Notes under the pieces: generated by a model
What the model was told of the DNA's origin: nothing
Seen by the model: the letters and a program-made list of their open reading frames with translations, nothing else
Databases searched by the model: none
NCBI RefSeq assembly: GCF_014117325.1
Contig: NZ_CP059732.1
Span: 1,364,001 to 1,428,000, forward strand
DNA from: Spirosoma foliorum
GTDB lineage: Bacteria > Bacteroidota > Bacteroidia > Cytophagales > Spirosomataceae
DNA: 64,000 nucleotides
Direction of reading: 5' to 3'
Shown: in pieces, positions 4,909 to 46,696 of the stretch
How the letters are laid out: the number at the start of each line of letters is the position of its first letter
Position numbering within the stretch: position 1 is the stretch's first letter
Position numbers and translations under genes: made by a program

Positions 4909-5714
4909 TTTTTTAGTGGCGAGTCCTTCTCTTTGGCCAGTGTGTTGTACACCAGCTTGTCCATCAGACCAGGAAGCCATTTGTTCATAAAGACAGTGAA
5001 TTTGCCCTGGCCAGTCAAAATGAGTTCACGTTTCCGACTTTTTACGGCTCGGAGTATATGATCGGCACATTCCTCGGCGCTCATCATGCTGCTTTCATCG
5101 CGCATTGTTTCGCCTTTTGCCTGGCCGTGGGCATCTAGTGCCGAAACTCGAATATTGGAAGCTGTGAAGCCTGGGCAAGCCGTCAGCACGTGAACGCCCG
5201 TGTGGAGCAATTCAGTCCGAACCGCTTCCAGAAATCCGTTCATCGCAAATTTTGACGCAGAATAGCCAGCCCGTACAGGTAGACCCCGGTAACCCGCAAT
5301 CGACGAAATACCAACGATAGAACCTTTGGTTTGCTGAATGTAGGGGAGGGCGTAGCGAGTGGCATAAACCGTTCCCATGAAGTTGATATCCATCACTTTC
5401 TGGATAACTGCCGGGTCGGTATCGATTAGCATAGAGCGCATGCTAATGCCCGCATTATTGATGAGTATATCCAGTCGGCCGAAATGGGCAATGGTTTGGT
5501 CTATCAGTTTTTTTACATCCGCTTCGATGCTTACATCGGCAATAAGCGAAAAGCAGGTAATGCCAGCCTGCTGAAGTTCATCGCTAACCAACTGAAGTGC
5601 ATCCGCTTTACGACCACAGATAACAATACGAGCTCCTTCATGTCCGAAGGCAAAGGCTAATGCCCGACCAATGCCCGACGAAGCACCGGTAATAAGTACA
5701 ATTTTATCTTTCAT
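4905..5714 (-). CDS. Short-chain dehydrogenase/reductase
   Basis: About 269 residues from the ATG at 5712-5714; a TTG at 5726 would add four. It is a classical SDR with a Rossmann fold: cofactor motif TGASSGIG near residue 10, NNAG near 87, catalytic Ser in the GISSIAGY segment and catalytic YSASK near residue 155. The R in CGRKAD after strand 2 favours NADP(H). The long C-terminal tail after residue 200 resembles the DHRS7/YqjQ-like SDR subgroup acting on hydrophobic alcohols or ketones. Substrate cannot be told. It is convergent with the TPR/SH3 gene and shares an inverted repeat with it. Confidence 0.88.
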   Translation of the reverse strand: MKDKIVLITGASSGIGRALAFAFGHEGARIVICGRKADALQLVSDELQQAGITCFSLIADVSIEADVKKLIDQTIAHFGRLDILINNAGISMRSMLIDTDPAVIQKVMDINFMGTVYATRYALPYIQQTKGSIVGISSIAGYRGLPVRAGYSASKFAMNGFLEAVRTELLHTGVHVLTACPGFTASNIRVSALDAHGQAKGETMRDESSMMSAEECADHILRAVKSRKRELILTGQGKFTVFMNKWLPGLMDKLVYNTLAKEKDSPLKK

Positions 5715-5838: not shown

Positions 5839-8094
5839 TTATCGAATGAGCGTTACTGTTCCTTTGAAGGTACGTTTGGTCGTGAGCAGGAGATAATAAT
5901 ACGTGCCAACGGCAGCATCGTTACCATACCAGCGAAATTTTGGGTCGGTCGATGTGAAGATGGTTGCCCCCCAGCGATTCGTGATGTCAACCCGTTTGAA
6001 TTGTTCATCACACGAATTTTCGGGTATGTCTTTTACGGCGAAGTAATCGTTGGCACCATCGCCATTGGGGGTAAATACATTGGGTACTTTGATCTCGGCG
6101 TTAGCCGATGGGTTTTTAACATGGAATGTAACGCTAGTCACGTCGGTATGATTGGGCTGGCAGGAACGATCATCAACTACGAAATCGACAATGAATGTGG
6201 CCTCACTTTTGCCCGCCATCAATTCGCAGGTAGGCGTCCAGCTAAAGGCAGATTGTAGCGTGGGCAGACCTGTTTTGTCGGTGAAATTCATGCCCGCAGC
6301 TTTCACATCAAATCCGCGTCCTGTACCTGTTAATCGAAGTGTGTCGCGGTCGGGGTCGTTGCCCAGTACATCGAATTGCGTGTGGCCGGTAGAGTCGGAG
6401 GGGCTCACGGAGAGTTCAACGACAGGCTGGGCCAGTGTTGTGCGTATACTGGGTGGCTGGCTGGGTATGCCCACAGCCGAGAGCCGCACCGTGACAGTAT
6501 CGCGAAGGTTTTGATTACAGCGCGTATCGGTCACAATAAAGTCGACTACATACTCAGGTTGTGTGGCTTGTGTACAGGTTGGCTTCCAGGTGAACGGTTG
6601 AGCGACTTTTCCCGCACCTGAAACAGAACTAAAGCTCATGCCCGCTTGTACCAGAGTAAAGCCGCGCCCGACAGCCTGAATCGTGATATTATCGTTATCG
6701 ATATCGTTGCCAAAGGCCGTAAAGCTAAACGATGAGCCAACCGTAGCTTTGCCTATGTTATTTAACAGATCGGTGCTGGCTGCAGGTTTATTATTTAATG
6801 ACGGAATAATTGTCAGGCGGATACTAATCGTATCACTCAATCCTTGCGGACACCCATCATCGGTGGCCCGGATGAGTAAGGTAAACGGTTTTCCATCGGC
6901 TCCAACGCAGCGCCCAAAACAGAATTTAGCTTGTAAGGTATCGCTACTGGTCTTGGTGAGCAACGTACCGGGTGTGAGTGTCAGGCCGGGTAGCGACCCG
7001 CTCATGTTAGTGATGGTAATTTGCTGGTTCGGGTCAATATCAGTGACGTACAAACTCAGGCAGTTTGTGTCTTTCTCGGCAATTGTGATGACGTTTCCTT
7101 CTTTGTAGAAGCCTTTCTGTCCATCAGGCTTGAAAAGGAGTGTCGGCGGGTTGTTTTTCTTACAGTCGACAACCAAAACCTGAAAATCGCGTCGGACGAG
7201 ACCGATCAATTTTTTATTCCGGTATTCACCAACTTCAACCGAGAACACGAAGAGGCCAACTCTGTCGGGAGTTACCGTGAGCAACCCGGTACGGGCGTCT
7301 ACGCGTAGGGGTACACTTCCCGGAATCTCATTGCTGATTGAAATGCCGTTGATCCATTGCACAGGTGGGTAGGGGCCAGCGTTGAAAACGGGTTGGGCCG
7401 CCTGATTGACAGAGCCTGGATCTGGATAAATGGATGTACTAAACCCATTATAGGGCGTAACCAGGTTATAGGTCAGACTATCGCCATCAGCGTCTTTGGC
7501 ACTAAAGTCGAGCACAAATGGCTGACCCACGCAGGCATAATCACCTTTAGGAACAGTAAATATCGGCGACGAATTGGCTACCGTAACCTGTCCGTTTCTT
7601 ATGGCTGGAAATTCCAGGTAGAATGCAGAACCGGCTGCACCGGGAGCCGTGATATTGACGATTGTTCCGTTTCGGCAGCAACGCTCCCAGGACATATAAT
7701 AACCACCAGGATCATTGAAAACGTTAGGGTCGAGGTTCAGGTCGTTACTGTATCGAATTAATAATGTTCGTAACTCAGCCACGGCGCAGGTGGGTCTCGT
7801 ATAGGCTACCTGCTCGGTACTAACGCGGGGCAGCGGAACATAGCCAATAAGCTGGTTTGTTCGTTTGGCAAAAACACCGACGCTAACGACAGCATCATTG
7901 GCACCCGTATTTCCGTTGATGGCATCGAAGTACAGATTCAGGTTAATGCGATGGGAATAAGCGCTCTGTGAGCCGAGATAACGCAACTCCAATTCGCCCC
8001 CAACAATATGGGTTGCCAGGGCAAAGTGGCTCATAACCAGTAATAAGCAGGTCATAAGTAAGGTTTTCCATAACGGACAGTACAGGTTTGGCAT
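5839..8094 (-). CDS. Secreted gliding-type protein with CHU_C type B sorting domain
   Basis: A 751-residue protein. The signal peptide covers residues 1-27, followed by the mature start THIVGGELELRYLG, typical of large Bacteroidota surface proteins. Several Ig/cadherin-like beta domains follow, with repeated DxDxDxLT calcium-type loops (KDADGDSLTYNLV, GNDIDNDNITIQ, GNDPDRDTLRLTG). The last 85 residues form the gliding-motility-associated C-terminal domain with the hallmark TPNGDGANDYF and NRWGATIF. This directs export through the type IX secretion system and sorting to the surface (type B signal). Role: cell-surface adhesin or structural protein; ligand unknown. It is divergent from rlmD. Confidence 0.9.
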   Translation of the reverse strand: MPNLYCPLWKTLLMTCLLLVMSHFALATHIVGGELELRYLGSQSAYSHRINLNLYFDAINGNTGANDAVVSVGVFAKRTNQLIGYVPLPRVSTEQVAYTRPTCAVAELRTLLIRYSNDLNLDPNVFNDPGGYYMSWERCCRNGTIVNITAPGAAGSAFYLEFPAIRNGQVTVANSSPIFTVPKGDYACVGQPFVLDFSAKDADGDSLTYNLVTPYNGFSTSIYPDPGSVNQAAQPVFNAGPYPPVQWINGISISNEIPGSVPLRVDARTGLLTVTPDRVGLFVFSVEVGEYRNKKLIGLVRRDFQVLVVDCKKNNPPTLLFKPDGQKGFYKEGNVITIAEKDTNCLSLYVTDIDPNQQITITNMSGSLPGLTLTPGTLLTKTSSDTLQAKFCFGRCVGADGKPFTLLIRATDDGCPQGLSDTISIRLTIIPSLNNKPAASTDLLNNIGKATVGSSFSFTAFGNDIDNDNITIQAVGRGFTLVQAGMSFSSVSGAGKVAQPFTWKPTCTQATQPEYVVDFIVTDTRCNQNLRDTVTVRLSAVGIPSQPPSIRTTLAQPVVELSVSPSDSTGHTQFDVLGNDPDRDTLRLTGTGRGFDVKAAGMNFTDKTGLPTLQSAFSWTPTCELMAGKSEATFIVDFVVDDRSCQPNHTDVTSVTFHVKNPSANAEIKVPNVFTPNGDGANDYFAVKDIPENSCDEQFKRVDITNRWGATIFTSTDPKFRWYGNDAAVGTYYYLLLTTKRTFKGTVTLIR

Positions 8095-38837: not shown

Positions 38838-41800
38838 ATGGCGTTGCCAAGCTGCTTAAAACGAGCTTGGCTATGTATACTGGTCTGCCTACTCGGGCAA
38901 CTTGTATATATGCCTACGGCTACTGCAACGCACTTTCGGTATGGCAACCTTAGTTGGCGACAATTACCGTCTGATGCAACCGGCCGAACTATTGAGTTTA
39001 AGCTCACCATGGGGTTCCGGCTGAGTTATAGTAATTTCTCCCCCACACCAACCGTTGGTTCTACCGTTAGTAATGCCAATGCCAACGGAAGTGCCGCCTT
39101 TACCTATGGCGATGGCACGACGACCACAGCGTTCAATTTTACGGTAACTTCGGTTAATACAGCAGACGATTATTTTTATGCTGAAGCTATATTAACAAAG
39201 ACATACTCAACAACAGGAAACTTTACCGCCTTTATTGAGGCAAGCGCACGGCTTAGTACGTTGCAGAATAATGGCGATGGCCGTTATCGAATCAACTCGT
39301 TGGTTAACGTCGGTGCTGCCAATGCCAACCTGCCACCAGCATCAACCTTACCGCCAATTGTCAATCTACCGTTTAATCAGTCTGCGGCTACGTTTACAGT
39401 GCCCGCCACTGATCCAGATGGCAACCCGCTTACGTTCAGTCTGGCAACTGCCGCCGATCTGGGCGCAACATCGTATACGTTTACTCAGCCAACCAATTTT
39501 TCTATATCATCCAGTGGCGTAGCCACATTCGACACGCGGTCGCCGAAAGCAGTTGGGCAGTTATACAATGCGATCATAAAAATATCCGACGGCAAGTCGT
39601 TTGTCATTGTTGACTTCATTATTAAAATCGTTGCTGCCAGTGATCCGCCCGTCTTTGTGTATGGGGGCATTACGCCCGCAAATAATTCGGCAATACAGAC
39701 GTATGTAGGTTGTCCAATCAATTTTAATGTTCGGGCAACAGACACTGATCCAACCAGTAATACCATTACGCTTCAGGGGGTGGGTTTGCCATCGGGGGCT
39801 ACATTCTCGCCTGTCACAGGTTCAAATACGGTAACTTCTGCCTTTAGTTTTAATCCTACCACCGAGGGAACGTCGGTTACGTCGTTCTATGCACAGGATA
39901 ATATTGGTAATCAGGCAATAACGTCGGTTACGTTTCGAGTCCTTCAACCACTCTTAACGGCTAATGCTTCGCTGGTTTGTGTGGGTAGTACGATTAGTCT
40001 GACGGCTACGCCTGGTACAAGTGCTTCAGGCGTAACAAATTATACGTTCAGAGGGCCGAATGGTGTGATTGGCTCAACGAGTACTACAAACACCGTGACT
40101 ATTAGCGGACTGGCAGCGGGCGTATATAATTTTAGTGTTACAACCACTAATTCTCTCAATTCAAACACCGCCTGTACCAGCACAGCTGTTACATCAGTAA
40201 CCGTCGATGCTCCCCCTACAGTTTCACTGACTAATTCAGGAACACTAACCTGTGCAGTAACCAGTGTTACGTTGACAGCAACTAGCAGCACTGTCCCAAC
40301 TTCGTATGCGTTTACCGGGCCAGGTCTAAGTCAGACGGGTACGGCAAATACAGCAGTCGTTACGCAGCCGGGAACCTATACGGTTTTAGTAACGACGCCC
40401 AGTGGTTGTACGGCAGTAGCCACTACAACCGTGGTCAGCAATACGGCTACACCAGCTACTCCTACGGTTAGTCTGATACAACCTAGTTGTACGCTTGCCA
40501 CGGGTACCATTACCGTTACAGCACCCACGGGGGCGGGTTTAACGTATAGTATCAACGGTACAACTTACACCAATACAACAGGTGTGTTCACGGGTGTCGC
40601 AGCTGGAACCTATGCGGTGACGGTTCGCAATACAAGTAGTGGATGTACATCTCCCGCTACGTCGGTAACGATAACTGCGCAACCTGCAACACCGGCAGCT
40701 CCGACGGTTGTAACGACTCAGCCAACATGTACGCTGCCAACCGGTACGATCACTATCACAGCGCCAATAGGGACAGGACTGACGTATAGCATAGATGGTG
40801 TAAACTATGTGTCGTCTCTAGTATTTTTAGGCGTTACGCCTGGAACGTATGCCGTGACGGTCCGCAACAGCAGTGGGTGTACGTCTGCGGTTACCAGTGC
40901 AAGCGTAAATGGAGCCTTACTAGCCTCACCAGCTCCAACGGTAAGTGTGACTTCACAACCCAACTGTCTGACGGCTACAGGTATCATTACCATCACAGCG
41001 CCCACCGGAACGGGATTTTCATACAGCATCGATGGGTCAACCTACACCAACACGACGGGTGTGTTCACGGGCGTCGCTCCGGGTGTATATGCGGTGACTG
41101 ACCGAAATGGTCTAGGCTGTATTTCTACCGCGACCTCAGTTACCGTGAATGCACAGCCCTCCACGCCCGTGGCTCCCACGGTAAGCGTGACTTCGCAGCC
41201 CAACTGTCTGACGGCCACCGGAACGATCACTATTACTGCCCCCACGGGAACGGGACTGACTTACAGTATTGATGGTACGACCTACACGAATACGACCGGA
41301 ACGTTCACTGGTGTGGCTGCGGGCACGTATGCGGTAACGGTTCGCAACAGCAGCGGTTGTACTTCGGCTGCCACATCGGTAACGGTGAACGCTCAACCAC
41401 CTACACCTGTGGCCCCAACGGTAAGCGTGACTTCGCAACCCAACTGTCTGACGGCTACAGGAACGATTACGATCACAGCGCCCACAGGGACTGGACTCAC
41501 ATATAGCATTGATGGCACGACCTACACCAACACTACTGGCTCATTTACGGGCGTTGCTGCCGGGACTTACGTGGTGACAGTCCGTAACAGCAGTGGCTGT
41601 ACATCGGCTGCCACATCGGTAACGGTGACCGCCCAGCCACCCACGCCAACTGCTCCCACCGTGAGCGTGACGGCTCAACCTAACTGTCTAACCGCCACAG
41701 GTACCATTACCGTTACGGCACCGACCGGAACAGGGCTCACTTATAGCATTGACGGCACGAGTTACACGAATACGACAGGCGTGTTCACGGGCGTTGTCGC

Positions 41801-42926
41801 AGGGGCTTATGCGGTAACGGTGCGTAACAATAGCGGCTGTACGTCGGCTGCCACCTCCGTGACGGTGACGGCTCAACCGCCCACGCCCGCAGCTCCGACG
41901 GTGAGCGTATCGGCTCAACCCAACTGTTTGACGGCCACGGGAACGATTACCATTACAGCGCCGACTGGCACGGGCTTGACGTACAGCATTGATGGTACCA
42001 CGTATACGAATACAACGGGGTCATTTGCAGGTGTTGCCGCCGGGACTTACGCGGTAACGGTCCGCAACAACAGTGGTTGTACTTCGGCGGCTACCTCTGT
42101 GACGGTGAATGCCCAACCGCCCACGCCCGCAGCACCAACGGTAAGCGTGACTTCGCAACCCAACTGTCTTACCGCTACAGGCACTATTACCATTACTGCA
42201 CCTACGGGAACAGGACTTACATACAGTATTAATGGCACTACGTACATAAATACGACAGGTGTGTTCACGGGCGTTGCTGCCGGCACCTACGCAGTAACGG
42301 TTCGCAACAGCAATGGCTGTACGTCTGCCGCTACCTCCGTGACGGTGAATTCACAGCCTCCTACACCAGTCTTGACATTAAACTCAGTTTCAATCTGTGC
42401 GGGTTCATCTACAACCTTATCTGTAGGAGGCTGTACGGGTGGGACTTTACTTTGGTCAACAGGCGACAATACCACGTCTATTGTCGTCGCTCCAGTTGTC
42501 ACAACAACCTATTCCGCTACTTGTACGAACACGTCGGGTTGTATCGCTTCAGTTTCTGCGACTGTAACGATACGTCCTACTCCCACATTTACAAGCATAC
42601 CTACTGTTACAGCAGCTACCTGCAATGGGGCTACGGCTACGAACACGGCTCACATTGACTTTACGACGTTGCAGAATACCGAGCGCGCCGATATCTCTTT
42701 AGGGACAACTTATTCAGGGGCGGCATACGGAGCGCCAAGTAATAAAGTAGTGACTAGTGGAGCGGTTAGCTTTGGTAGCCTGCCTAATCCAGCTTCCAGC
42801 CAGGCATATACTATTCGATTGTTCAGCGGATCGGGGAGTTGTTTTGTCGATGTTGGTGCGCGGCTTGATCCCGTGAATTGTCAGTGCCCATCACCGTCTT
42901 GTGTCATCGTTACGATTGCCCCTTAA
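38838..42926 (+). CDS. Giant SprB-like repeat adhesin with CxCPxPxC end
   Basis: About 1,362 residues from ATG 38838 (ATG 38814 is an alternative). The signal peptide ends in ATAT before THFRYGNLSWRQL. The order is: N-terminal beta domain with cadherin-like motifs (residues 30-280), Ig-like segments (280-530), about eight 80-residue repeats (40441-42366; core QPNCLTATGTITITAPTGTG and YAVTVRNSSGCTSAATSVTV), an Ig-like spacer, and a C-terminal region of about 110 residues ending CQCPSPSCVIVTIAP. Paired cysteines per repeat suggest disulfides. A surface adhesin is likely; it lacks the CHU_C sorting domain and the C-terminal region may replace it. Partner gene follows 67 bases on. Confidence 0.85.
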   Translation: MALPSCLKRAWLCILVCLLGQLVYMPTATATHFRYGNLSWRQLPSDATGRTIEFKLTMGFRLSYSNFSPTPTVGSTVSNANANGSAAFTYGDGTTTTAFNFTVTSVNTADDYFYAEAILTKTYSTTGNFTAFIEASARLSTLQNNGDGRYRINSLVNVGAANANLPPASTLPPIVNLPFNQSAATFTVPATDPDGNPLTFSLATAADLGATSYTFTQPTNFSISSSGVATFDTRSPKAVGQLYNAIIKISDGKSFVIVDFIIKIVAASDPPVFVYGGITPANNSAIQTYVGCPINFNVRATDTDPTSNTITLQGVGLPSGATFSPVTGSNTVTSAFSFNPTTEGTSVTSFYAQDNIGNQAITSVTFRVLQPLLTANASLVCVGSTISLTATPGTSASGVTNYTFRGPNGVIGSTSTTNTVTISGLAAGVYNFSVTTTNSLNSNTACTSTAVTSVTVDAPPTVSLTNSGTLTCAVTSVTLTATSSTVPTSYAFTGPGLSQTGTANTAVVTQPGTYTVLVTTPSGCTAVATTTVVSNTATPATPTVSLIQPSCTLATGTITVTAPTGAGLTYSINGTTYTNTTGVFTGVAAGTYAVTVRNTSSGCTSPATSVTITAQPATPAAPTVVTTQPTCTLPTGTITITAPIGTGLTYSIDGVNYVSSLVFLGVTPGTYAVTVRNSSGCTSAVTSASVNGALLASPAPTVSVTSQPNCLTATGIITITAPTGTGFSYSIDGSTYTNTTGVFTGVAPGVYAVTDRNGLGCISTATSVTVNAQPSTPVAPTVSVTSQPNCLTATGTITITAPTGTGLTYSIDGTTYTNTTGTFTGVAAGTYAVTVRNSSGCTSAATSVTVNAQPPTPVAPTVSVTSQPNCLTATGTITITAPTGTGLTYSIDGTTYTNTTGSFTGVAAGTYVVTVRNSSGCTSAATSVTVTAQPPTPTAPTVSVTAQPNCLTATGTITVTAPTGTGLTYSIDGTSYTNTTGVFTGVVAGAYAVTVRNNSGCTSAATSVTVTAQPPTPAAPTVSVSAQPNCLTATGTITITAPTGTGLTYSIDGTTYTNTTGSFAGVAAGTYAVTVRNNSGCTSAATSVTVNAQPPTPAAPTVSVTSQPNCLTATGTITITAPTGTGLTYSINGTTYINTTGVFTGVAAGTYAVTVRNSNGCTSAATSVTVNSQPPTPVLTLNSVSICAGSSTTLSVGGCTGGTLLWSTGDNTTSIVVAPVVTTTYSATCTNTSGCIASVSATVTIRPTPTFTSIPTVTAATCNGATATNTAHIDFTTLQNTERADISLGTTYSGAAYGAPSNKVVTSGAVSFGSLPNPASSQAYTIRLFSGSGSCFVDVGARLDPVNCQCPSPSCVIVTIAP
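40441..42366 (+). repeat. Tandem array of about eight 240-bp coding repeats
   Basis: Repeats at 240-base spacing encode 80 residues each, with the conserved start of each unit recurring at 40930, 41170, 41410, 41650, 41890 and 42130. The first two and third copies are most diverged; units 4 to 8 are nearly identical in protein while differing at many synonymous sites, which argues against very recent duplication. Confidence 0.9.
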
Positions 42927-42993
42927 TATGAATTAGCTATTTCGAATTTATGGATAAGTGCCTTTTTTGATTCACATCTTACCGCTTGAATTG

Positions 42994-45900
42994 ATGAAAA
43001 AAAATCTACAAATGAATATCCCTCTGCCACTTAGGATGTTGAGACATGTCTGGGTTATTGGCTTACTGCTGATAGTTCAGTTGGTACGGGCAGAAGCTCC
43101 TAACAAGGAGTCGGCTCCGAAACTTTTGGGAATTGGTGATTTTGTATTCCTGGATTATAACCGAAATGGTATTCAGGATGCCGGAGAACCGGGTATTGCT
43201 AACGTAGTTGTTCGACTCTATCAGAGTGGGATACAGCGTGGGCAGACTACAACCAATAGTAGTGGTCAATATTCGTTCGCAACGGGATTGTTGCCCAATA
43301 CAGCTTATGAAGTCAGGATTGCTCCGGGCGATTTTCCTTCAGGCCTGAAATTGACCAGTTACCATCAAGGGAGCAACCAGGAAGTGGACAGTGATGCTCA
43401 ACTAGTTGGTGGAAATGCGGTTGTTTTTCTGACGACGAACAGTACCAACACCGCCGATAACTCGTACGATATTGGTTTCGTGGCTGGAAACCCTGATTTA
43501 ATTGTGGCTAAAACCACAGATGTATCGCAAACGACATTAGGTAGTAATGCGACCTTCACGATTCAGGTAACGAATAGCGGGAGTGGGGCGGCTACAAACG
43601 TACAAGTACGTGATACGTTGGACGCTGGATTGGCGTATGTATCGTCATCGCCAGCAGCCACTACAACGACTTTCGGAGGTACTCGAATTTTAGTTTGGAA
43701 TCTGGGTACATTAACCGCAGGGGCGACAACGAATCTGACCGTGACGACTACCACCCGTGCCGAAGGGGTTTTATATAACACCGCTTATGCCACAACGACT
43801 GATACGGAGAATAGTGTAGCAAATAATGCGGGAAGATCTTGTGTAACCGTCCCAATTAAACTATGCGCCGGTGATGATTACGTCGCTAGTTTGCCTGCCC
43901 AATATACGAATGTCCAGTGGTTTAGAAATGGAGGATCGACTCCCGTTGCTACTGGTAATAGCTTTACGATTGTACAGTCGGGGAGCTATACATTTACAAC
44001 AACGGCAAATGTAAGTTGCCCAGCTAATGGATGTTGCCCAATTATTGTCGAGGACGGGCTGGTTCCAACACTGGCGATTACGCCTGCAAGCCCATCTATT
44101 TGTCAGGGACAAAGCACAAACTTGACTGTTTCTGGTTGTACCGGAGGGGCTTTATTATGGAGTGCAAATGCCTCAAACGCCACTACAGCTACTATTCTGG
44201 TATCCCCGACATTGACAACCGTTTATTCTGTAACGTGTACACCAAGCGCGTATGGTACCTGTCCTGGCGTAACTTCTACCACCGTGACAGTGAACCCATC
44301 GGTGACGGCGACCTTATCGAGCATCACGATCTGTAACGGCACCAGCGGTACGTTAGTGGCGGGTGGCGGCACGAACTACCGCTTCTCAGACGGGGTGACC
44401 AGCACGACCAACACCACCGGTACTTTAGTGGTAGCGCCCACCATCAATGGAGCGAACCCTTATTCAGTGACGGTGACCTCAGGCTTCGGCTGTTCAGCAG
44501 TGGCTACGGGCACAGTGACGGTGAACCCATCGGTGACGGCGACCTTATCGAGCATTACGATCTGTAACGGCACGAGTGGCACACTAATCGCCGAAGGGGG
44601 GACCAACTATCGTTTCTTCGATGGCACTACGGTGACCAATAATACCTTGGGCACCTTAGTGGTAGCGCCGACGGTGAACGGTTCGAACCCGTACTCAGTG
44701 ACGGTGACCTCTGGTTTCGGTTGTAGTGCCGTAGCAACAGGCACGGTGACGGTGAACCCATCGGTAACGGCCACCTTGTCAAGCATTACGATCTGTAACG
44801 GCACCAGCGGCACCTTAGTAGCGGGTGGCGGTACCAACTACCGCTTCTCGGATGGGGTGACCAGCACAACCAATACGACGGGTACTTTAGTGGTAGCGCC
44901 CACCATCAATGGAGTAAATCCGTATTCGGTGACGGTGACCTCGGGCTTTGGCTGTTCAGCGGTGGCCACGGGCACAGTGACAGTGAATCCATCCGTGACG
45001 GCGACCTTATCAAGCATCACGATCTGTAACGGCACTAGTGGCACCTTAGTGGCTGGTGGCGGCAGTTCGTACCGTTTCTTCGATGGCACTACGGTGACCA
45101 ATAATACCTCGGGCACCTTAGTGGTGGCACCGACGGTGAACGGGTCTAATCCGTACTCGGTAACGGTGACCTCGGGCTTTGGTTGTTCGGCAGTGGCCAC
45201 AGGCACAGTAACGGTGAACCCATCGGTAACGGCGACCTTATCGAGCATTACGATCTGTAACGGCACCAGCGGTACGTTAGTGGCGGGTGGCGGCACGAAC
45301 TACCGCTTCTCCGACGGGGTGACCAGCACAACCAATACGACGGGTACTTTAGTGGTAGCGCCCACCACCAACGGTGCGAATCCCTACTCAGTAACCGTGA
45401 TTTCGGGGGTAGGCTGTTCAGCGGTGGCCAGTGCGACAGTGACGGTGAACCCATCGGTAACAGCGACCTTATCGAGCATTACGATCTGTAACGGCACGAG
45501 TGGCACACTAATCGCCGAAGGAGGGACCAACTATCGTTTCTTCGATGGCACTACGGTGACCAATAATACCTTCGGGCACTTTAGTGGTAGCGCCGACGGT
45601 GAACGGTTCGAACCCGTACTCAGTGACGGTGACCTCTGGTTTCGGTTGTAGTGCCGTAGCAACAGGCACGGTGACGGTGAACCCGTCAGTGACGGCCACC
45701 TTGTCGAGCATTACGATCTGTAACGGCACCAGCGGCACCTTAGTGGCGGGTGGCGGTACCAACTACCGCTTCTCGGATGGGGTGACCAGCACGACCAACA
45801 CCACCGGCACCTTAGTGGTAGCGCCCACCATCAATGGAGTGAATCCGTATTCGGTAACAGTGACCTCAGGCTTCGGCTGTTCAGCAGTGGCCACGGGCAC

Positions 45901-46696
45901 GGTGACGGTGAACCCGTCAGTGACGGCGACAATTACGGTTACTAATTCAACGATATGCCAGGGTGAAAGTACGACACTCACCGCAGGCGGAGGAAGTGGC
46001 TATCTCTGGTCAACAGGTGCGACGACTGCTACGATTTCTGTAACTGCCAGCGGGACCTATTCAGTGACCGTAAATAGCTCAGTGGGTTGTAGCGCTGTTG
46101 CGAGTACAACTGTGACCGTTAATCCTGCACCACAACTCACTATTAACTCGGTTACGTTGTGTGCGGGAGGAACTGCTACCTTAACGGTTAATGGTTGCGC
46201 TGGCGGTACACTCAACTGGGCTACGGGCGATAATACGGCGTCTCTAACGATTACACCGTTAATCACCACGACTTATTCGGCCACCTGTACGTTCCCCACA
46301 GGCTGTACCGCTGCCATAGCGACAACCGTCGTTGTGAATTCAGCGCCCACGTACAATGTGGCTCCAACAGTAGTAGCAGCTACTTGTACAGGGGCAGCGG
46401 CAAATAACAACGCGCACATTGACTTCACAACGTTGCAGAATGCGGAACGGGCTGATATTTCGCTCGGAACCACTTACACCGGCCCAGCTTATGGTGCGCC
46501 TAGTAATCAGGTTGTAAGCGGAGGTGTAGTGTCCTTTGCAAATTTGGCAAACCCCGCCACTGCACAATCCTATACGATTCGGTTGTACAGTGCCAATGGT
46601 ACTTGCTTCACCGATGTAACGGTCGTTCTGAGTCCGGCTGAATGCGAGTGCCCTGCACCGAAATGTGTACCTGTCGTTATTCGAAAAGTCAGGTAA
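42994..46696 (+). pseudogene. Giant repeat adhesin (SdrD-B, DUF11, Ig-like), frameshifted
   Basis: Two frames together encode about 1,233 residues from ATG 42994 (GTG 42958 is a possible longer start). The first frame ends at 45651, the second carries on through 46696. The order is: signal peptide (to QLVRAE), SdrD B-like domain (GDFVFLDYNRNGIQDAGEPG), DUF11/CARDB-like domain (NPDLIVAKTTDVSQTTLGSN), Ig-like segments, seven 77-residue repeats, an Ig-like spacer, and a C-terminal region homologous to the first adhesin's, ending CECPAPKCVPVVIRKVR. One extra base near 45573 breaks the frame inside repeat six. It may be an assembly or sequencing error in a repeat, or true switching. If genuine, the product would lack the C-terminal sorting-like region. 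Confidence 0.85.
44291..45908 (+). repeat. Tandem array of seven 231-bp repeats, alternating A/B
   Basis: The conserved tgaaccc motif recurs at 44291, 44522, 44753, 44984, 45215, 45446, 45678 and 45909: all spacings are 231 except 45446 to 45678, which is 232. Units alternate between an A form (NYRFSDGVTSTTNTTGTLVV) and a B form (YRFFDGTTVTNNT.GTLVV), so the higher-order unit is 462 bp. The extra base lies in unit six. Confidence 0.95.

Follow-up and report, generated by a model that had tools for sequence, protein, structure and literature searches.

A short cysteine-containing tail, a putative surface-targeting tag, at the C-terminus of large adhesin-like proteins of Spirosomaceae

Two neighbouring genes of Spirosoma foliorum, located at positions 38838 to 46696 of the window (the whole stretch of 64,000 nucleotides that was analysed), encode large proteins with similar C-terminal ends. 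The initial annotation had proposed that the 110 or so residues common to both proteins could be a distinct cell-surface sorting or anchoring signal, or a disulfide cap, which raises the question of which part of this end could act as a signal, and by which route. We found that the end consists of two separable parts and consider, with a probability of about 0.5, that the shorter and terminal one is a surface-targeting or anchoring tag, likely acting via the type IX secretion system (T9SS) and with reactive cysteines.

Two genes with a common C-terminal region

The features of the two genes are listed below.

38838..42926, + strand: gene 1, a large Ig/repeat protein with a hydrophobic, signal-peptide-like N-terminus (read by eye); the open frame begins at TTG 38808 and the probable start codon is ATG 38838
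38937..39311, + strand: SIBA-E_N domain (PF24907) of gene 1; 52 bits, cut-off 28.1
40930..42355, + strand: 240-base tandem repeats of gene 1
42582..42881, + strand: C-terminal beta-sandwich module of gene 1, recognised by profile and BLASTP matches to that of gene 2
42879..42923, + strand: gene 1 tail, CQCPSPSCVIVTIAP, which lacks 'VP' and does not match NF058574; a divergent form
42958..45651, + strand: 5' open frame of gene 2, with a signal-peptide-like N-terminus, SdrD_B, DUF11 and repeats
43132-43476, + strand: SdrD_B of gene 2
43495-43833, + strand: DUF11 of gene 2
44280..45930, + strand: 231-base tandem repeats of gene 2, with a frame change inside (region 45553-45584)
45584..46696, + strand: 3' open frame of gene 2, with the last repeats, an Ig_7-like domain, module and tail, and no signal peptide of its own
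46346..46645, + strand: C-terminal beta-sandwich module of gene 2
46643..46693, + strand: terminal tail of gene 2, CECPAPKCVPVVIRKVR (CVP-CTERM); NF058574 22.6 bits, cut-off 19

The description of this locus as two adjacent giant adhesin genes was right in that genes 1 (38838-42926) and 2 (42958-46696) are arranged head to tail on the + strand and their ends align, but gene 2 is split into two open frames (42958-45651 and 45584-46696), the first of which stops out of frame and without a tail. The frame change sits in a repeat copy whose length differs from that of its sister copies, and the syntenic gene 2 of a congener is one intact open frame (L179:4597-7134, genome G249); the same locus also encodes a gene 1 orthologue. 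In this region (L179:2257-9632) the congener has, next to its orthologues of genes 1 and 2, another gene that ends in the same way and is absent from the window. Three tail-bearing genes are interrupted in the window's genome (at 45553-45584 of the window, in L034 near 4849 and in L039 near 5359-5453), two of them by a frame change in repeats and one by an in-frame stop, and these interruptions may reflect either errors of repeat assembly or real variation. Many of the repeats contain cysteines. Named relatives of genes from this genome belong to Spirosoma, Fibrella, Fibrisoma and Arsenicibacter. The SIBA-E_N domain takes its name from integrin-beta-like adhesion proteins of a slime mould and occurs in many Bacteroidota adhesins.

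The common C-terminal region itself was confirmed, as the two ends share 64% identity over 116 residues without gaps (155 bits), and the strings previously named, including CQCPSPSC and CECPAPKC, are present there. It was also correctly stated that neither end is of the CHU_C/type B kind, since genes 1 and 2 gave no match to the type B models TIGR04131 and PF13585, whereas the gene at 5839-8094 does match (54.6 bits with Pfam, 36.5 bits with NCBIfam). However, the approximately 110 residues are not one unit. Structure prediction confidently modelled the first 95 or so residues of the shared region as an Fn3/Ig-like beta-sandwich, and placed the last 15-25 residues outside this fold with low pLDDT (60-71 for the terminal residues in the one usable model, with values of 71 and 60 for the last two ten-residue blocks of the gene 2 tail).

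The beta-sandwich domain was also found mid-protein, in nine strong rows that correspond to eight distinct places with at least 400 residues downstream, and because of these positions the whole 110-residue module was ruled out as the signal. Module and tail are therefore separable. Of the module copies counted in this analysis, 75 were terminal and 28 were not; both counts contain duplicates from overlapping loci, and the 28 also contain frames truncated at the edge of a locus. There are 51 non-redundant module-plus-tail ends, of which 40 rows, including the window's own copy, were aligned and 11 were left out.

Composition and position of the tail

In its typical form the tail reads CxCPxxxCVP or CCPxxxCVP, followed by a short hydrophobic stretch that leads into a basic end. 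Using the motif C-x(2-6)-C-[VILSTA]-P-x-x-[VILMA], and counting as terminal those matches within 45 residues of the stop, we found it terminal in 107 and internal in 4 cases in a set of 760 open reading frames, counts which speak to position and not to frequency, as many of these loci were fetched by the tail or the module itself. One of the 107 is probably a spurious frame, and the set left out type A and type B loci (L114-L156), frames of fewer than 150 residues, 3'-open frames and duplicates of the last 150 residues. The earlier idea of a distinct C-terminal sorting or anchoring signal is supported for the last 15-25 residues and fails for the whole module, given its mid-protein copies.

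The tail is carried on several kinds of upstream domain. The module precedes it in 48 of the 107 tail proteins (and in 2 more by eye) and an Ig domain with CPxxxCCP in 44, and it was also found on SdrD_B-repeat proteins and on Spirosoma proteins of about 300 residues. Seven of nine homologues of the latter protein end in the tail and two (477 and 490 residues) do not; three of these seven tails match the NCBIfam model NF058574, weakly (E 0.06 at best), and the predicted structure of one such protein was a poor model (mean pLDDT 41.9). The CPxxxCCP end of the Ig domain that lies just before some tails, such as those of L048 and L070, resembles the tail, as if the latter were a variant. At the other end of the proteins, a hydrophobic N-terminal stretch was present in 23 of 30 tail frames with a start codon, compared with 81 of 204 neighbouring frames.

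Among 99 distinct tails, collected with a motif requiring C-x-P after the last cysteine, the spacing C-x-C-x4-C (cysteines at -7, -5 and 0) was found in 47 and C-C-x4-C (-6, -5 and 0) in 39, the remaining 13 having other spacings. The CxCPxPxC signature first proposed consequently describes both tails of the window but not the whole family. The residue after the last cysteine is V in 74 and I in 17 tails and is followed by P; position +3 is mostly F (50) and position +5 I (78), with lysines or arginines thereafter. The part beyond the last cysteine is 8-37 residues long and has a net charge of +1 to +6.

The tail is not an unlisted element, as the gene 2 form is covered by an NCBIfam model of 17 positions named CVP-CTERM, 'putative sorting domain' (NF058574), with a match that reaches the last residue, and 29 of the 40 aligned module-plus-tail ends match the same model at E 0.01. 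No match at E 1 was listed for gene 1, and its nine orthologues also have divergent tails, none of which is over the NF058574 cut-off; in gene 1 and these nine close orthologues the cysteines and the hydrophobic end are kept and the CVP motif is unmatched. The library entry gives the family a name without a mechanism, and we found no paper that uses the name CVP-CTERM, nor a description of the tail in the literature on cysteine tails and T9SS. New here are the division of the shared end into a domain and a tail, the replacement of the tail by type A domains in homologues (described below), the divergent form in gene 1 and the classes of cysteine spacing, as well as the finding that no linked gene recurs in 30 stretches from 18 genomes.

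Links to type IX secretion and competing readings

SprA is present in all 150 genomes sampled from the window's family, and the window's genome encodes SprA, PorU (1261.6 bits, cut-off 420) and five PorP/SprF genes; 55 of its loci score over the cut-off for type A and 13 over that for type B. Co-occurrence of tail and T9SS was observed, in that all 83 tail-bearing genomes of the family carry SprA, but it is weak and uninformative, because SprA is found equally in the 67 family genomes without a tail match.

Neither a type A nor a type B signal was recognised in the tail, since the corresponding models (TIGR04183/PF18962 and TIGR04131/PF13585) matched none of the 40 module-plus-tail ends at E 0.01. 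Gene 1 has a PF18962 match mid-protein (residues 423-449) that is below threshold (20.7 bits, cut-off 27), and a comparison of upstream domains common to tail and type A/B proteins gave scattered weak repeat matches only. Like type B domains (TIGR04131, PF13585), the tail is found on large adhesins of the window's genome. Type B genes usually cluster with PorP/SprF genes, according to PMC10202324, and four of the five PorP/SprF genes of the window's genome lie within about 4.1 kb of type B genes, whereas the PorP/SprF gene nearest to any of the 13 CVP loci of this genome is 24.9 kb away. A further T9SS ending, the type C CTD (cl41395) with a ChiA-type end, is described in the same source. In the 30 neighbourhood stretches no convincing linked partner gene was found: the most widespread cluster of neighbours brings together generic ABC ATPases from 5 genomes and partly reflects suf-cluster synteny, and the next one, from 4 genomes that include two of the same genus, is methyltransferase-like by eye.

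The link to T9SS comes from the ends of homologous proteins. With the SIBA-E_N part of gene 1 as the query, 48 homologues of the gene 1 N-terminus were obtained (7986 candidates scored, 755-2401 residues), and in the nine close ones the chain finishes with the module followed by a cysteine tail. Among the other 39, PF18962 appears in the source annotation of 21, four of which were rechecked and were all over the TIGR04183 cut-off, while 18 distant homologues have no such annotation, several being truncated or from other groups. A search of the 150 family genomes with the same N-terminal part gave four matches, namely the window's genome, two proteins with module and cysteine tail, and a protein of genome G405 that ends in a type A domain (30.8 bits with Pfam, cut-off 27; 22.5 bits with NCBIfam, cut-off 23); the G405 genome also has CVP tails. 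The strongest sign of a shared task is that homologous proteins end in either a type A domain or the tail, and this exchange makes T9SS the most likely route. That both use one machine is not thereby proven, because the common N-terminal part of these homologues is only about 30-51% identical and the intervening repeats differ.

From these sequence comparisons we infer delivery to the surface, the T9SS route and the chemistry of the cysteines. The functional element would be a flexible C-terminal tag, the last 15-25 residues, made up of a cysteine pair (CxC or CC), a third cysteine four residues on, usually V-P, a hydrophobic run and a basic end, and it would deliver Sec-exported and mostly large adhesin-like proteins of Spirosomaceae to the cell surface through T9SS and retain them there. 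The cysteines are probably the reactive part, judging from their conservation, and could form a disulfide or some other thiol bond at the surface. As described in PMC11285876, type A CTDs are folded Ig-like domains of seven strands, and in RgpB truncation of two C-terminal residues blocks secretion while the end may be extended harmlessly; the variable basic extension of the tail fits this tolerance, and its apparent lack of a folded domain does not fit type A. The last 22 residues of HBP35 were the smallest region to give surface GFP in a deletion series (PMC3120885). Tail and type A domains (TIGR04183, PF18962) are thus alike in their C-terminal place on homologous proteins, in their Sec-exported substrates and in the presence of T9SS genes, and they differ in that the tail has no sequence match to type A, is short and modelled outside a fold, and has conserved cysteines. 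A more specific version, which we put forward tentatively and hold to be doubtful, is that the tail represents a further class of T9SS export and anchoring signal, differing from types A, B and C as a short peptide outside any fold, in which the hydrophobic-basic end would direct export and the cysteines would form a covalent thiol anchor, replacing type A on large Spirosomaceae adhesins. The exchange of ends is a direct and testable link to T9SS. Should the tail prove to be a T9SS signal, recognition would not require the folded Ig-like domain, which bears on how T9SS reads its substrates; otherwise these large surface-type proteins would have another, novel anchoring route.

Such another route could rely on a dedicated protease or transferase for which the tail is the recognition site. 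Independently of T9SS and similarly to myxosortase, this enzyme would cut or modify the tail at a cysteine and thereby attach the protein to the outer membrane. A short terminal motif with an invariant cysteine and a basic end, present on many proteins of one family, is what MYXO-CTERM-like tripartite tags look like, cleavage by myxosortase is described as dependent on the conserved cysteines of its tag (PMC11980579), and the tail was modelled without a folded domain such as known T9SS signals have. There is also a candidate processing enzyme in the window's genome, a second PorU-like protein at G000:C1:6436819-6439968 (187 bits, PorU cut-off 420) beside the clear PorU. We nevertheless regard this route as rather improbable, because type A domains replace the tail in homologues, because no gene for a linked enzyme recurs in the 30 stretches and because of the geometry of the tail: basic residues start about six positions past the last cysteine in the profile of 99 tails, and the five or so residues in between leave no room for a membrane helix of the MYXO-CTERM type. 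A cruder hydropathy test of the last 45 residues was positive for 6 of 30 tail frames and 18 of 204 neighbours, in a span that includes the strands before the tail.

It is also conceivable, if unlikely, that the cysteines only close a disulfide loop or staple protecting the C-terminus of a secreted Ig-repeat protein, with no role in sorting. The internal CPxxxCCP at the ends of Ig domains in the same protein family would be consistent with such a cap, as would the cysteines of many repeats, and since CPxxxCCP lies just before the tail in 44 of the 107 proteins, the tail could represent a remnant or a variant of this motif. However, the CVP form is almost always terminal and sits on unrelated upstream domains, a conserved hydrophobic-basic end would be superfluous for a cap, and three cysteines, as in the 86 of 99 tails with the two main spacings, would be odd for a closed one; moreover, the tail proteins otherwise have no recognised C-terminal export signal. 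Far less probable still is a disulfide bond between the adhesin tail and the gliding track or a T9SS component. The precedent is SprF of Flavobacterium johnsoniae, whose Cys-X-Cys tail is described as disulfide-bonded to GldK, coupling the adhesin carrier to the moving track, and as needed for attachment to the track and not for export of the adhesin (PMC12635249). SprF shares with the present family conserved twin cysteines in a C-terminal tail and a place in a Bacteroidota adhesin apparatus, and CxC is found in 47 of the 99 tails. Yet SprF is an outer-membrane carrier with a periplasmic tail and not an adhesin, so that an exported protein would have to keep its end in the periplasm; 39 of the 99 tails have CC instead of CxC, and the precedent was not seen in the window's genome, as none of its five PorP/SprF proteins has a CxC tail. 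On balance, we favour, with moderate confidence, a surface tag whose end serves export, probably via T9SS, and whose cysteines anchor the protein.

Distribution of the tail

The tail is nearly confined to the window's family, Spirosomaceae. The window's genome, a single contig of 8.85 Mb, contains 11 loci over the NF058574 cut-off; a looser tail search, at E 1, also picked up 5 of 14 control genomes, but no match there reached the cut-off. Within the family 83 of 150 genomes match the tail, with up to 20 tails per genome, and at the level of the order 40 of 390 genomes match it, 39 of them of the window's family and one (G558), of another family, at E 0.002. At the level of the phylum there were matches in 9 of 395 genomes, four of them of the window's family in long frames; the other five, from outside the family, were in frames of 22-79 codons, two over the cut-off, and were taken as chance. 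The module-plus-tail profile matched at least 4 of the 395 phylum genomes, all of the window's family, when up to 11 candidates per genome were scored. A divergent form of the tail may reach beyond this family, as a Flavobacteriaceae MAG (P0008) encodes a related module with the end CPPMQCIPIQIMKN. In one genome (G466:C1, about 6700744-6730050), six consecutive tail-bearing genes of the same strand lie within 30 kb.
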